Assembly (NCBI GenBank): GCA_002877855.1
Contig: PNIA01000012.1
Location: 1 to 51,306, forward strand
Direction: 5' to 3'
Length of the DNA: 51,306 nt
Source of the DNA: Caldisphaera sp.
Lineage (GTDB): Archaea > Thermoproteota > Thermoprotei_A > Sulfolobales > Acidilobaceae
Position 1 is the stretch's first letter. Each line of letters begins with the position of its first letter. The position numbers and the translations under genes are program-made. Of this stretch, positions 6,269 through 44,837 are shown one piece after another. Below the pieces are notes generated by a model, which was not told the DNA's origin, searched no databases, and was given only the letters and a program-made list of their open reading frames with translations.

Positions 6269-6396
6269 TGCCTGGCTCGGCCATAGTTGCCGGGCAACAC
6301 CCGGACTCATATCGAACCCGGAAGTTAAGCCGGCCACGTTGGGTTCGCCAGTGAGCTCCGAAAGGGCTCGCAGGCTTCCCAAGCCGAGGCCAGGCT
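6269..6396 (+). rRNA. 5S ribosomal RNA
   Basis: A GC-rich ~128-nt island in AT-rich DNA. Ends GCCTGGC (6270-6276) and GCCAGGC (6389-6395) form helix I. The conserved internal segments ACACCCGGACTC, ATCGAACCCGG and GAAGTTAAGCC are typical of archaeal 5S rRNA. It is followed by TTTT, a plausible terminator. No 16S/23S genes are nearby; unlinked 5S is usual in Crenarchaeota. Ends may be off by 1-3 nt. Confidence 0.95.
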
Positions 6397-27509: not shown

Positions 27510-28463
27510 TTACTTTTCTTCTATTTTTTCCTCGATTTCTTTCTTTTGCTCCTGTAAAAACTTAATTGCTTCATCATGTGTTGGTATAGCATTCGCTCCC
27601 AATCTAGTAACCTTTAATGCGGCAACTGCTTGAGCATATTCTAATGCATCTTTCATCTTTTCCCCTCTTGATAAGCTTAATAGAAATGCAGATGCAAACG
27701 CGTCTCCACTACCTGTTGAGTCCCTAACATCTTTAACTCTGAATGCAGGCATATAACCCGTAAATTCTTCAGAATTTGCATATAATCCCTTTGGACCCAT
27801 TTTTACAATAATCATCTCTGGTCCAATTCCTCTTAATAAATTTGAGCATTTTTCTGGGTCATTTAATCCAGTTAAATTTTTACATTCATTTTCATTTAGC
27901 AATACTATATCAGTTAGTTTAATCAAGCTTTTTAATTCCTTTAAACCTCTCATGCTCAATCTTCTCCCAGGATCCCAAGAAATTAATGAATTATTTTCTT
28001 TAGCTATCACTGCTGCCCTAATAGATGTATCTGGTCTAAGGCTCGCTATATGGATATATTTTGATCTAGATATTATATCTTCATCTATATCATTTGGCAT
28101 AAACTTTTCTGCACATCCCTTAAATCCATATATTGATATATTACCGCTTTGATCTATCATTACTATAGAAAAACCAGTTTCTTCAAAACAAATCTTTAAA
28201 CCTGAAATGTCTACCTTATATTTCATTAGCTCCTCAACAATTGATCTTCCAAAGGTATCTAAACCGACCTTTGCTAAAATTGCAGAAACCCCTCCAAGCT
28301 TTGATACATTTAAAGCAGCATTAACTGCTGATCCACCAGGGCCTGTTGATTGCTCCATTATATCAGCTTCTTCGTCAGGACTTGCAAATCTCTCAACAAT
28401 AAATCTTAAATCCATTAGTGCATGACCTACTGCTACAACATCTATATTTTTTAAGTTTACCAT
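27510..28463 (-). CDS. PfkB-family sugar/nucleoside kinase
   Basis: 317 aa ribokinase-fold kinase. GPGGSAVNAALNVSKLGG is the substrate-side motif, and DSTGSGDAFASAF the anion hole with the catalytic Asp. It could be the ATP-dependent phosphofructokinase used by some Desulfurococcales-type glycolyses, a KDG kinase or a nucleoside kinase. Its place 90 bp after the FBP aldolase on the same strand favours the glycolytic reading. GGTG precedes ATG 28463. The C-terminus is Glu/Lys-rich. Confidence 0.85.
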   Translation of the reverse strand: MVNLKNIDVVAVGHALMDLRFIVERFASPDEEADIMEQSTGPGGSAVNAALNVSKLGGVSAILAKVGLDTFGRSIVEELMKYKVDISGLKICFEETGFSIVMIDQSGNISIYGFKGCAEKFMPNDIDEDIISRSKYIHIASLRPDTSIRAAVIAKENNSLISWDPGRRLSMRGLKELKSLIKLTDIVLLNENECKNLTGLNDPEKCSNLLRGIGPEMIIVKMGPKGLYANSEEFTGYMPAFRVKDVRDSTGSGDAFASAFLLSLSRGEKMKDALEYAQAVAALKVTRLGANAIPTHDEAIKFLQEQKKEIEEKIEEK

Positions 28464-28553: not shown

Positions 28554-29390
28554 TTATTTTTCTAACTCCTTTATTGCTTCTTCTGGCGTTAAATTATCAT
28601 GAACTACCTTCATTATTGCTCTTACCATGCCTGAAATATTATTGCTTCTAAACACATTTCTACCAACAGCTACTCCACTACCTCCAGCTTGAATGACATT
28701 ATAAACATCTTGTAGGAATTCTATCGGTTTATCTCTTACAGCCCCTCCACTCATAACTACAGGCAATCCCTGTGCTATCTCTACAACCTTTGCAAAAGTC
28801 TCTTTACTACCTGTATAATAGGTTTTTATCAGATCTGCACCTGTTTCAGCTGCTGCCCTAGCACCATACATAACTATTTCTGGATCATATCTATTTTTAA
28901 TTGTAGATCCTCTTGGATATGCAAGTTGTAAAACTGGCATGCCATATGCATCTGCTGCATCCTTTATTAGATACCATTCCTGTATCATGTCATTCTCATA
29001 ATCGCTACCCCAATAAACTGTAGCAGCAACAGCTTCTGCTCCCATCGATATAGCATCTTCTACTGATCCTAGCCTTGTTTGTAGATAATGGCTTTGAGGG
29101 GGTCTTATGTTACTTTTACCTGTTAATTTAACTACTAAATTGACTTTATTTGCCCATATTTCATGGGTTAATCTAGCCATGCCAGGTAACAACATTATTG
29201 CATCTACTCCAGAATTTACAACCTTATCTAAAATTGTTTTTGCTAGCAATCTATCATCTGGAAAATCAGATGGACCATGCTCTAAACCATGATCAAATGC
29301 AAATATAACTGCTCTCCCATCTTTAAGTATTCTTCCAAGTCTTACCCTTATACCTATATTGGAATAACTTAAACCTTCGTACTTGCTCAT
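28554..29390 (-). CDS. fba: Fructose-1,6-bisphosphate aldolase, archaeal class I (DhnA family)
   Basis: 278 aa Schiff-base aldolase. FAFDHGLEHGPSDFPDD is the family signature, the Schiff-base Lys is in DLIKTYYTGSKETF, and VVMSGGAV and GVAVGRNVF bind phosphate. It interconverts FBP and triose phosphates. ATG 29390 (MSKYEGLSYS) follows GGTGGGTG; an earlier GTG at 29402 is part of that ribosome site. The first ~40 bp of the gene and its ribosome site belong to a 58-bp unit repeated five times upstream. The related 2-amino-3,7-dideoxyheptulosonate synthase is less likely given the neighbouring sugar kinase. Confidence 0.9.
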   Translation of the reverse strand: MSKYEGLSYSNIGIRVRLGRILKDGRAVIFAFDHGLEHGPSDFPDDRLLAKTILDKVVNSGVDAIMLLPGMARLTHEIWANKVNLVVKLTGKSNIRPPQSHYLQTRLGSVEDAISMGAEAVAATVYWGSDYENDMIQEWYLIKDAADAYGMPVLQLAYPRGSTIKNRYDPEIVMYGARAAAETGADLIKTYYTGSKETFAKVVEIAQGLPVVMSGGAVRDKPIEFLQDVYNVIQAGGSGVAVGRNVFRSNNISGMVRAIMKVVHDNLTPEEAIKELEK

Positions 29391-29640
29391 ATTTACACCC
29401 ACCTTTAATACCTATATTGGAATAACTTAAACCTTCGTACTTGCTCATATTTACACCCACCTTTAATACCTATATTGGAATAACTTAAACCTTCGTACTT
29501 GCTCATATTTACACCCACCTTTAATACCTATATTGGAATAACTTAAACCTTCGTACTTGCTCATATTTACACCCACCTTTAATACCTATATTGGAATAAC
29601 TTAAACCTTCGTACTTGCTCATATTTACACCCACCCTTTA
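29351..29640. repeat. Five-copy 58-bp tandem repeat of the fba start region
   Basis: Copies begin at 29351, 29409, 29467, 29525 and 29583 (exact 58-bp steps). They are virtually identical except the outermost edge (CCACCCTTTA). Read leftward each carries TAAAGGTGGGTG (ribosome site), ATG (29390, 29448, 29506, 29564, 29622) and the codons for MSKYEGLSYSNIG. Only the copy at 29390 continues into the aldolase. 58 is not a multiple of three, so each extra ATG opens a short ORF shifted in the next copy. Confidence 0.97.
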
Positions 29641-29651
29641 GGTGTTCGTAG

Positions 29652-29669
29652 GTATTTAAATATATTTTA
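29652..29669 (-). promoter_or_regulatory. fba promoter (TATA box) upstream of the repeats
   Basis: Leftward the sequence reads AAAATATATTTAAATACC, the only good TATA box beyond the repeats. It predicts a start near 29632, ten bases before the outermost repeat ATG at 29622. The functional fba ATG therefore lies about 240 nt into the mRNA. A separate AT-rich AAAATAAATAAGC at about 29675-29687 could serve ubiX in the other direction. Confidence 0.55.
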
Positions 29670-29717: not shown

Positions 29718-30296
29718 ATGGGTTGCGAAAGCATAGCGATAGCTATAACAGGGGCTAGCGGTATAAGATACAGCATAAGAATTTTAGATGCAATAAAACA
29801 AACTGATGTAAAAATTAAAGGAATAATTTATTCAAAGAGCGCAATAAAAGTAGCTCAGATTGAGGAAAAGTTTAGCGAGGAAGAATTTCTAAATAAATTG
29901 AAAAAATATGGAGATACTTACAGCGAAGATAACTATGATTCACCTCTAGCAAGCTCGAGCTCTTTGCCAGATTGCATGGTAATTTGCCCAGCAAGCATGA
30001 AAACAATTGGCATAATAGCTAATGGAATTCCATTGAATTTGATTTCAAGAGCAGGCTTATCATTTTTAAGGATGAAAAGACCGTTGGTTATAGCATTTAG
30101 AGAAGCTCCTATAGGAACAGCTGAAATCAGTAACTTGTTAAAGCTATCAAAATATGGTGCTATAATAATGCCTCTAGCCCCAGGATTTTATTCAGAACCA
30201 AAAACGATTGATGACCTAATAGACTTTATGGTAGGAAAAATCCTTGATTCGTTAAACATACCAAATAGGCTTTATAAAAGATGGAGTTTGGATTAA
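29718..30296 (+). CDS. ubiX: UbiX-like flavin prenyltransferase
   Basis: 192 aa. The flavin site IAITGASGIRYSIRIL starts the protein. DSPLASSSSLPDCMVICPAS and KRPLVIAFREAP are conserved UbiX segments, and IIMPLAPGFYSEPKTIDDLIDF is the C-terminal signature. It makes prenylated FMN for UbiD decarboxylases; no ubiD is in the window. AGGGA precedes ATG 29718. It converges with the Cys-rich gene (4-bp overlap). Confidence 0.92.
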   Translation: MGCESIAIAITGASGIRYSIRILDAIKQTDVKIKGIIYSKSAIKVAQIEEKFSEEEFLNKLKKYGDTYSEDNYDSPLASSSSLPDCMVICPASMKTIGIIANGIPLNLISRAGLSFLRMKRPLVIAFREAPIGTAEISNLLKLSKYGAIIMPLAPGFYSEPKTIDDLIDFMVGKILDSLNIPNRLYKRWSLD

Positions 30297-30697
30297 ATTT
30301 TCTTTTTCTGAATATCCTTTAGATTAGAAGGCATATCTAAATCATTTTCCTCATTAAGCTCTTCTTCGAATGACTTCATCTTCTTTGGTTGATTTTCAAC
30401 TGCAAAAGCACATCTACCATCTGGTAACATGGCTTTCTTTTCACAATATGCATATCTGCAGGAAGCTCCAATACATTTATCTCCAATCCATGCACACATA
30501 GCTACCTTTATAGGCCTACCTCTATAATGATCTGTAGATATTCTTAAAGCCTTTTGGCCGCATCTAAAGAATGGACAAAGAGGATTACACTTATCTCCAA
30601 TAGGTCTTGGCTTTATTTCTTTGCTTTGTTGATAGTTTGTTTCGTTGCTTTTAAATTCACGGCCCTGCTTTGATGGGCCTGATGTATTTGAAACCAA
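30293..30697 (-). CDS. Conserved-looking Cys-rich protein, probable metal binder
   Basis: 134 aa. A basic, disordered N-terminus precedes nine cysteines in CNPLCPFFRCGQKAL, CAWIGDKCIGASCRYAYC and GRC, spaced like zinc or Fe-S ligands. The C-terminus is acidic/helical (SFEEELNEENDLDMP). I do not recognise a named family. TTG 30697 follows GAGGTG at 6 bp; a GTG at 30706 overlaps the site. The cysteine pattern suggests a nucleic-acid or Fe-S role, which is inference. Confidence 0.65.
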   Translation of the reverse strand: MVSNTSGPSKQGREFKSNETNYQQSKEIKPRPIGDKCNPLCPFFRCGQKALRISTDHYRGRPIKVAMCAWIGDKCIGASCRYAYCEKKAMLPDGRCAFAVENQPKKMKSFEEELNEENDLDMPSNLKDIQKKKI

Positions 30698-30747
30698 AAC
30701 ATACACCTCTTATATTTTTGGTTTTCTCTGTTTACCCTCCTTATATA

Positions 30748-31290: not shown

Positions 31291-31968
31291 TCAAGACAGC
31301 CCGCTTAATCCTATTAACTTAACGTAGACAGATGAGTTGTATAAGCAATCAATGCTATCTTCTATATATTCTATACTTTCTTTAAATGATATAAGCTTTG
31401 AAGGCTCATTTTTATACAATTCTAGAACCTTTGCTAAACCAGTTCTATATATTATATCAGCCTTACCTTCAGAATCGCTAATTTTATTAAATTTATCCTC
31501 CAATATCTTCCTTTTTTCTGAATTGCCTTTACCTCCCATTGATATGGATCTAAGAAGATCAACTAAATACATTGATGAATTGTAAGTCTCCCCCAATAAA
31601 GATGTTATTGCTTTTTCCACATCTTTTTCAATATCTTTTTGTAGACTATATGATAAGATAAGCCTATATATACCTGCTTCAAGTTTGCTCATAGCACACT
31701 CAAGCTGTAAGGATGAATTTATATAAAATTCCTTATATGAAACCAATTCAAGCCTACCACTTGCCAAATAATCAAATATCCTATCTTTATTTCTTGCTAT
31801 CCTATCCTTTGTTGACATTAGTTCTTGTCTATATGTTTTCTCTAAATAATCATTATTCTTGTTTTCTTGAATCCTTGAAAGAAGCAATGCGGAAATGTTT
31901 TGCAGATCTTGAGCCATATCCTGCAGTACTTCTAACAAAGTAATTTTTGTTATGCTCTCAGTTGCCAA
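31291..31968 (-). CDS. All-alpha protein of unknown function, possibly translin-like
   Basis: 225 aa, almost entirely amphipathic helix with no membrane segments. Segments such as RQELMSTKDRIARNKDRIFD and FYINSSLQLECAMSKLEAG recall translin/COG2178 or PhoU-like helical bundles, but the match is weak. Translin proteins bind RNA, which would suit the coupled endA gene. TTG 31968 follows GGGGTG at 6 bp; GTG 31977 overlaps that site. Confidence 0.6.
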   Translation of the reverse strand: MATESITKITLLEVLQDMAQDLQNISALLLSRIQENKNNDYLEKTYRQELMSTKDRIARNKDRIFDYLASGRLELVSYKEFYINSSLQLECAMSKLEAGIYRLILSYSLQKDIEKDVEKAITSLLGETYNSSMYLVDLLRSISMGGKGNSEKRKILEDKFNKISDSEGKADIIYRTGLAKVLELYKNEPSKLISFKESIEYIEDSIDCLYNSSVYVKLIGLSGLS

Positions 31969-32133
31969 ACTTAGCACCCCATTAATTCTCCATATATCTA
32001 GGTTATATAAAATAGATAAAAATCTATTCCTTTCTTATGTTTCTTGAGCGAATTTATAATCCTTGGATATAGGATGATTTAAATTAAGTTAAATTTAAGA
32101 GTACAGGAGAATTTTTAATCTAGGGAGCTAGAT

Positions 32134-43421: not shown

Positions 43422-44837
43422 ATGTTTGGAAAATATCTATTATCTGTAGCTATTATATCATTGATAGCTTTGAGCCTTTCAATACCATTGATTTCATCAG
43501 CCTATAACTTTGACAATATTACTAACATAGAAAATAATAATTATATCATCGTTTATCCAAATTCTATATCATTCTTATTTAATGGATCTAACTATGTTAA
43601 TAATTATAATGGAAATGGAACACTAGGCCTAAATCTGTTATTTTTAAGCGGTTCAAAGGAATTGACAATAAACGTAACAAAATATGTAGAGAATAAAGGA
43701 TTTAAAGTAAGTAAATTTGAATTCTATCACAACTCTAATGGAGGGCAAGGTATATCAAATTATTCATCAATTTACGAGTCTATACCTTTTAATAGCAGTT
43801 CAAAAGGGTACTTGAAGATTTTAGCTAATCCAATCAACAAACTCTACTATATTAACCTATCAATAAATGCTTCATGGGAGGGTTCTCTCAACTTATCAAA
43901 TAGCCTTTCAAACAATGAAGTTTTTAGTAAGATGTTATCGAATTACAATAATGAAGGATCTATATTTAACAGCTTTAAAAACTATGGTAACTTTGAAAGC
44001 ATAACACAAGAACTATCAGGATTTGGTGTCTCATCTTTAATCAACAACTTAAATATAACAGGTTTAAACATAACCTATTATAAAATTAATATTGGAAGCA
44101 ATACATTAAACATAACATTTGATGCAACATTTAATTCCACAGAGGCAACAGAAAGCAAAGCAAGCAATGTTTCGATGCTAATAAATAGCTTAATTAATAG
44201 TTTCTTAAAGCCAAGCTATACAGAAATAAGCTCTTATTTAACAGTTGAAAACAACTTATTAAATTACAATTTATATGTAAACACGAATGTTAACATAACA
44301 TCTACATCAATGCCATACAAATTTAACCTGTCAAAGCTACTATCAAATATAACACAGATCAATCAATTTAACCTATCTATAGTTAAAAAAGCTATAAATG
44401 CTTCTCTAGAAATAGCTAACTATGTTAATAAAAACTATGAAATAGTTGTTCCAAGTTCTTTAAGCTTAAATGTTTCTTGTAAAGATAATTATAATAATTA
44501 TAGCTTAGAGACGCCAAAAATATCTTATTTAAATAATCCTATAAGGAGCTTGGCAAGTGTTGATTATTTAATAGGAAATGTTTCAACAATATTGCAACAA
44601 AATGGATTTATTGAAGCATCAAACAAGGTACTTTCATTAAATAATGTAGAGGTAAAGTTAATTGGTAAAGGGGTAACTGTTAAGCCAAACCAAACAACTA
44701 TTGGAAACTTAAGCAAGGTAACTGTTACAGTAAACAACAACTCATCAAGTAATATTAAACAAGCAGAAATAGGTAGTACTATTGCAGTTATAATAGTTTT
44801 GGCTGTTGTAATTATATTAATTAAAAGACATTTTTAA
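43422..44837 (+). CDS. Asn/Ser-rich surface protein with C-terminal anchor
   Basis: 471 aa. An N-terminal signal peptide (LLSVAIISLIALSLSIPLIS) is followed by a large extracellular region very rich in Asn, Ser, Tyr and N-x-S/T glycosylation sites. A C-terminal helix (IGSTIAVIIVLAVVIILIK) with a short KRHF tail anchors it. There is no known domain. GGTGAGG precedes ATG 43422. It may be an S-layer-associated or transport-associated protein; function unknown. The next gene encodes a similar-layout protein and is probably cotranscribed. Confidence 0.7.
   Translation: MFGKYLLSVAIISLIALSLSIPLISSAYNFDNITNIENNNYIIVYPNSISFLFNGSNYVNNYNGNGTLGLNLLFLSGSKELTINVTKYVENKGFKVSKFEFYHNSNGGQGISNYSSIYESIPFNSSSKGYLKILANPINKLYYINLSINASWEGSLNLSNSLSNNEVFSKMLSNYNNEGSIFNSFKNYGNFESITQELSGFGVSSLINNLNITGLNITYYKINIGSNTLNITFDATFNSTEATESKASNVSMLINSLINSFLKPSYTEISSYLTVENNLLNYNLYVNTNVNITSTSMPYKFNLSKLLSNITQINQFNLSIVKKAINASLEIANYVNKNYEIVVPSSLSLNVSCKDNYNNYSLETPKISYLNNPIRSLASVDYLIGNVSTILQQNGFIEASNKVLSLNNVEVKLIGKGVTVKPNQTTIGNLSKVTVTVNNNSSSNIKQAEIGSTIAVIIVLAVVIILIKRHF

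Follow-up and report, generated by a model that had tools for sequence, protein, structure and literature searches.

The start region of fba, which encodes an archaeal class I fructose-bisphosphate aldolase, is repeated five times head to tail in the 51,306-nt stretch of Caldisphaera sp. DNA analysed here (the window). The fivefold repetition is confirmed in the sequence, and it places four false starts ahead of the real one, most likely left there by a copying accident. The array is probably the result of a recent expansion through slippage or unequal exchange, tolerated because the last copy retains a complete ribosome site of its own, and not a built device. Recent slippage was one of four readings offered in the first-pass annotation of this DNA and provides the best fit, since the copies are identical and the four closest genomes found have a lone start. 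The absence of a comparable array from the window and from the whole genome of G015, a Caldisphaera-type genome, fits as well.

The repeated start region and its relatives

The features of the locus, listed from the divergent neighbour through fba to the gene downstream of it, are as follows.

29718-30296, plus strand: divergent neighbour, UbiX-family flavin prenyltransferase (TIGR00421, 158.9 bits)
29651-29664, minus strand: TATA box TATATTTAAATACC, 42 nt before the outermost ATG (7.67 bits in the G015 profile)
29350-29635, minus strand: periodic array of 286 nt, period 58, with five copies of the ribosome site, ATG and about the first 13 codons (Tandem Repeats Finder and script)
29628-29635, minus strand: ribosome site GGTGGGTG of the outermost copy, with one extra G before it (sequence and predicted anti-Shine-Dalgarno pairing)
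29396-29403, minus strand: ribosome site GGTGGGTG of the true fba start, repeated at +58, +116 and +174 (sequence)
28554-29390, minus strand: fba, archaeal class I fructose-bisphosphate aldolase, 278 aa from ATG 29390 (NF040816, PF01791)
27510-28463, minus strand: downstream neighbour, PfkB-family carbohydrate kinase (PF00294, 171.7 bits)

The five tandem 58-bp copies described in the first-pass annotation were verified by reading of the sequence, by Tandem Repeats Finder and by a script, and direct reading likewise bears out that every copy carries a Shine-Dalgarno site, an ATG and early fba codons. Tandem Repeats Finder calls the array at 29350-29640 with a period of 58, 5.0 copies, 99% matches and 0% indels, and gives it a score of 573 against 71 for the runner-up in the window. 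The ATGs lie on the minus strand at 29622, 29564, 29506, 29448 and 29390. A core of 54 nt, from 13 nt before to 41 nt from the ATG, is identical in all five copies and each pair of adjacent copies matches exactly over 228 nt, which points to an array that is either young or kept homogeneous; the exact identity could instead stem from active homogenisation or selection. The window holds four occurrences of a 23-nt stretch that spans the junction, whereas none was found in 100 shuffles (up to 3 mismatches allowed). The left edge of the outermost copy deviates from those of the remaining copies.

The product of fba narrowly passes the NCBIfam cut-off for NF040816 (430.8 bits versus 430) and also matches Pfam PF01791 (DeoC/LacD). 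Outside its own cluster in the protein collection (P0001), its best matches are P0002 to P0005 at 81-83% identity; P0003 and P0004, from Caldisphaera sp. and a Caldisphaeraceae archaeon, are named class I fructose-bisphosphate aldolase family protein. The related aldolase P0002 has a predicted start three residues earlier. Twenty-five of the 48 genomes in the family of G001 have a match to the window aldolase, and four of these (G001, G015, G016 and G017) reach 80-83% amino-acid identity. All four of these closest genomes found have a single start at the homologous place, as read by eye over the 130 nt before the start, and the scan for tandem repeats gave no array there. The N-terminus of the window aldolase aligns with those encoded at L001, L016 and L018, where L001 is the same place as in G001 and L001-L040 denote 40 fba loci with some places counted twice. 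The start in G016 is less certain since the first seven residues fail to align. The fba genes at L001 and L018 seem to begin with TTG rather than ATG, following a GAGGTG ribosome site. L001 also has a divergent ubiX-like neighbour that by eye is similar to the one in the window. Two frames near the locus, 30293-30706 and 31291-31977, have no Pfam or NCBIfam match, and by eye the first of these resembles a frame at the start of L001.

A clean five-copy array across a start codon is unusual by comparison with G015. The whole G015 genome (1,546,846 bp) has no array with a period of at least 30, at least 95% matches and at least three copies; the near miss has a period of 177 bp, 3.5 copies and 92% matches, and the six weak arrays that extend over a putative start have 1.9-2.2 copies. 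In the scan of the 40 fba loci, the only tandem array near fba (score of at least 50, period of at least 20, matches of at least 80%) was found at L014, about 1,500 nt from the start. Repeat-region DNA matched none of the four genomes with which it was compared, a result that is uninformative as a negative. The exact junction pattern had no match among viral contigs, a collection in which none was expected, and a viral origin of the array was dropped. Within the terms used, a search of open-licence papers did not yield a description of such a repeated start region.

Elsewhere in the window, the sole Rfam match at gathering scores is a 5S rRNA gene at 6273-6392 (RF00001, 55.2 bits). ARAGORN, which can miss intron-bearing archaeal tRNAs, found no tRNA in the 51 kb. 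A 471-residue frame at 43422-44837, beside an aminopeptidase N-like gene, lacks an NCBIfam match.

Reading frames and predicted transcription and translation of the array

Candidate promoters were scored with a TATA profile fitted on 800 kb of G015 sequence (494 upstream regions, of which about 0.6 were assigned a site), and the profile sites in G015 peak 42-45 nt before the start codon. The TATA box TATATTTAAATACC outscores 98.6% of the best coding-window sites and 82% of the best upstream-region sites. For each of the inner four ATGs, the preceding 70 nt hold nothing better than a site of 1.74 at -24, which ranks near the 53rd percentile of the best coding-window sites. The first-pass claim that no good TATA box exists except beyond the outermost copy thus holds for the inside of the copies, where nothing scores well, but there are two sites outside the array, since a weaker one (5.07) is located at -68 from the outermost ATG. 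In tandem promoters each unit has its own TATA box, which is not the case here (1.74 for the inner sites versus 7.67 bits for the outer box). Scores for the relatives are less clean, with 6.83 at -46 for L001, 7.0 at -69 and 6.62 at -45 for L018, 4.3 at -50 for L019 and just 3.51 at -27 for L016. Given that the best TATA box is outermost and none is found in the copies, it is likely that the promoter is outside the array and that a single transcript spans all five starts.

Four decoy open reading frames begin at the starts that precede the true one, and their extents were determined by script.

29521-29622, minus strand: decoy ORF 1, 33 codons, TAA 14 nt before ATG 29506
29463-29564, minus strand: decoy ORF 2, 33 codons, TAA 14 nt before ATG 29448
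29405-29506, minus strand: decoy ORF 3, 33 codons, TAA 14 nt before the true ATG 29390
29323-29448, minus strand: decoy ORF 4, 41 codons, out-of-frame end within fba

Because 58 is 1 modulo 3, an ORF that starts at an outer ATG shifts frame in the next copy and stops one copy later. Two further statements of the first-pass annotation agree with this, namely that a 33-codon out-of-frame ORF ends at a TAA, 14 nt short of the ATG two copies on, and that the ORF from 29448 terminates within fba. The annotation had also proposed a stop-restart chain through 29622, 29506 and 29390 from which the even copies were excluded. This chain does land on the true start, but the exclusion of the even copies does not stand as the ORF from 29564 also stops 14 nt before 29448. 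There are in fact two interleaved chains, 29622-29506-29390 and 29564-29448 with its end within fba, and the odd one alone reaches the true start. An additional TAA in the same frame is found 2 nt before each ATG reached by a decoy ORF. In the inner copies the TAAs 14 and 2 nt before the ATG share one shifted frame; by eye, the outermost copy has only the 2-nt TAA of that set, its other TAA being at 15 nt. Any ORF that enters the fba leader in that shifted frame terminates just before the start.

The geometry of the chain follows from the 58-bp period and the two leader TAAs of that shifted frame, 14 and 2 nt ahead of the ATG, and it does not stand out as a special feature. In a simulation, a one-copy model of the leader was duplicated at all pairs of breakpoints that gave units of 40-80 bp including the ribosome site and ATG, yielding 1287 cases of five copies each, 876 of which had a unit length not divisible by three. 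A stop near the restart is to be expected since the outermost ORF ended -4 to +20 nt from a later ATG in 826 of these 876 out-of-frame cases; the stop was exactly 2 nt before the later ATG in 807 of the 826, while it was exactly 14 nt away in 11 of the 876. The 14-nt gap of the array, an uncommon value, is owed to the junction, and the 2-nt stop lies behind it. Of 1377 putative gene leaders in G015, 1092 have one or both shifted frames closed by a stop no more than 25 nt from the start, and 308 have both closed, with starts taken approximately as the first start of the longest ORF. That shifted-frame stops are so common in these leaders strengthens the reading of the geometry as chance.

The decoy frames gave no sign of a coding role. 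The 37-residue decoy frame has no Pfam match, and the 45-residue frame from GTG 29460 had no candidate in the protein collection, in a search that needs shared 5-residue words and easily misses short proteins. A coding role for the decoys was rejected on these grounds.

Partial reinitiation along the decoy chain is possible by analogy with Haloferax volcanii, for which reinitiation at gaps of 13 or 14 nt is described as 'varying from 40 to 60%' in three gene pairs, with a '60% reduction' stated for one of the three (PMC10666635). According to the same paper, a gap of 13 or 14 nt lowers reinitiation far below that of overlapping genes, a gap of about 20 nt nearly abolishes it, and native coupled pairs mostly overlap (PMC10666635). 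The predicted pairing of the ribosome site, calculated with an assumed anti-Shine-Dalgarno sequence, is -9.2 kcal/mol at the outer, inner and last starts alike; with equal predicted pairing at all starts, direct initiation at the last copy should dominate. Folding predictions at 37 C give the last start an exposure of 0.45-0.48 for two to seven copies, compared with 0.27 for the one-copy model, and the outermost start has a similarly low value of 0.27. At 75 C the last start has a predicted exposure of 0.73 with five copies versus 0.50 in the one-copy model. Multiple copies may possibly raise the accessibility of the last start, and hence its translation, and effects of the array on translation are plausible. 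An RNA-structure switch was rejected since exposure of the last start is nearly constant across two to seven copies, despite the lower one-copy value.

Origin of the array

The expansion would have begun with the tandem duplication of a short stretch consisting of the ribosome site, the start codon and the first fba codons. This duplication probably occurred through slipped replication or template switching at imperfectly matching sites, TAAAGGGT upstream and TAAGGGT at codons 14-16, and reading of the flanks by eye places these imperfect repeats at the two breakpoints. A simple crossover at the shared AGGGT would yield an in-frame unit of 57 bp. The actual junction (by eye) is one base longer and has other changes, indicating that the event was imprecise or that the junction mutated afterwards. 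Once two copies exist, slippage or unequal exchange expands an array easily, and further rounds of either would have raised the number of identical copies from two to about five. The mRNA would then start from the old promoter, which lies beyond the outermost copy, and its leader would be longer by about 230 nt and hold four added starts whose predicted ribosome-site pairing equals that of the true start. Ribosomes that load at the last site would make normal aldolase, while those that load at outer sites would make out-of-frame peptides of 33 or 41 residues. A modest shift in fba output would be a likely side effect.

It is also possible, though unlikely, that five is the assembler's count, the true locus having one or a few copies and the rest arising from an assembler loop or misjoined reads. 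The 228 nt over which neighbouring copies are identical is longer than typical short reads and k-mers, which makes copy number hard to resolve, and the single copy in the four closest genomes found is in keeping with such a miscount. Short-read assembly graphs, however, tend to collapse tandem arrays or break contigs and do not readily lengthen them, and the bases at the junction differ from both flanks, where a simple misjoin of a single-copy locus supplies no such bases. The flanking fba and ubiX frames are also open, and the aldolase cluster P0001 is counted on 5 contigs, with the array itself read on this contig alone. Another reading with little to recommend it is promoter multiplication, in which each copy brings a TATA-like GGTTTAAGT, located some 40 nt ahead of the next ATG, and with it an extra transcription start. 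Judged by eye, the spacing of TTTAAG to the next ATG is nearly right, but this motif fails to score in the G015 profile, the best inner site being the one of 1.74 at -24 as opposed to the outer box of 7.67. As the inner sites are at the average level of coding windows, promoter multiplication was rejected and is very unlikely.

The proposal that the array is a translational tuning or phase-variable device holds that copy number is selected, with odd counts feeding ribosomes to fba and even counts diverting them out of frame. Stop-restart geometry does exist in the array, the outermost chain meets fba at odd copy numbers only, and the first stop leaves a 14-nt gap, which few simulated duplications reproduce (11 of 876) and which is of a length at which three Haloferax volcanii pairs showed reinitiation 'varying from 40 to 60%' (PMC10666635). 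Against this, a stop near a later ATG is what most simulated duplications produce (826 of 876, with 807 at 2 nt), and the real array has the 2-nt stop too. Since the inner starts share the ribosome site of the true one, direct initiation and the two chains would operate together and blur any effect of parity. The array is absent from the four closest genomes found, and aldolase is a housekeeping gene, a kind of gene not usually found among phase-variable loci. A phase-variable device requires variation in copy number. Selection of copy number for such a purpose is on balance unlikely. Still more specific is an archaeal parity switch: with a 58-bp unit (1 modulo 3) whose stops precede its ATG by 14 and 2 nt, ribosomes loading at the 5'-most site would advance by two copies at each restart, so that gain or loss of one copy by slippage would toggle access to the fba start. 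Such a switch is highly improbable; if true, it would produce heritable cell-to-cell variation in aldolase level.

Comparison with known systems

If the array is real, it provides a natural series of complete, identical starts on one mRNA with which the choice of start by archaeal ribosomes and the extent of reinitiation could be tested. If it is merely the outcome of recent slippage, it illustrates that out-of-frame duplication of an AT-rich leader brings stop-restart geometry with it as a near-automatic result.

Short internal tandem duplications reportedly cause phase variation of the type 3 capsule genes of pneumococcus. The array resembles these in that a short, spontaneous tandem duplication shifts reading frames, but the pneumococcal duplications lie in the coding region and turn the gene off, while the last copy of the array leaves fba intact. 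Identical repeat units in the leader or at the start of the coding region, as expected of a phase-variable locus, are found at fba. The uspA1 and uspA2 genes of Moraxella catarrhalis have tandem repeats between the promoter and the start codon whose copy number can alter expression (PMC4679880), and the likeness to fba is that the repeats precede the start codon. The repeats there consist of a run of G and of the tetranucleotide AGAT in 6-23 copies and lack a start codon, and both the variation and its effect were measured (PMC4679880). The unit at fba is 58 bp and holds a ribosome site, an ATG and coding sequence.

Coupling of termination and reinitiation occurs in archaea and bacteria (PMC6728339, PMC10666635), and the fba array is like it in having a stop just ahead of a ribosome site and start on the same mRNA. 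In the array the gap from stop to start is 14 nt, with a second in-frame stop at 2 nt. A conserved or selected upstream frame is not seen, as none of the four closest genomes found has a decoy start. Known coupled pairs consist of two real genes that mostly overlap by 4 or 1 nt (PMC6728339, PMC10666635), whereas the fba decoys are out-of-frame by-products with stops that are 14 and 2 nt away from the start.
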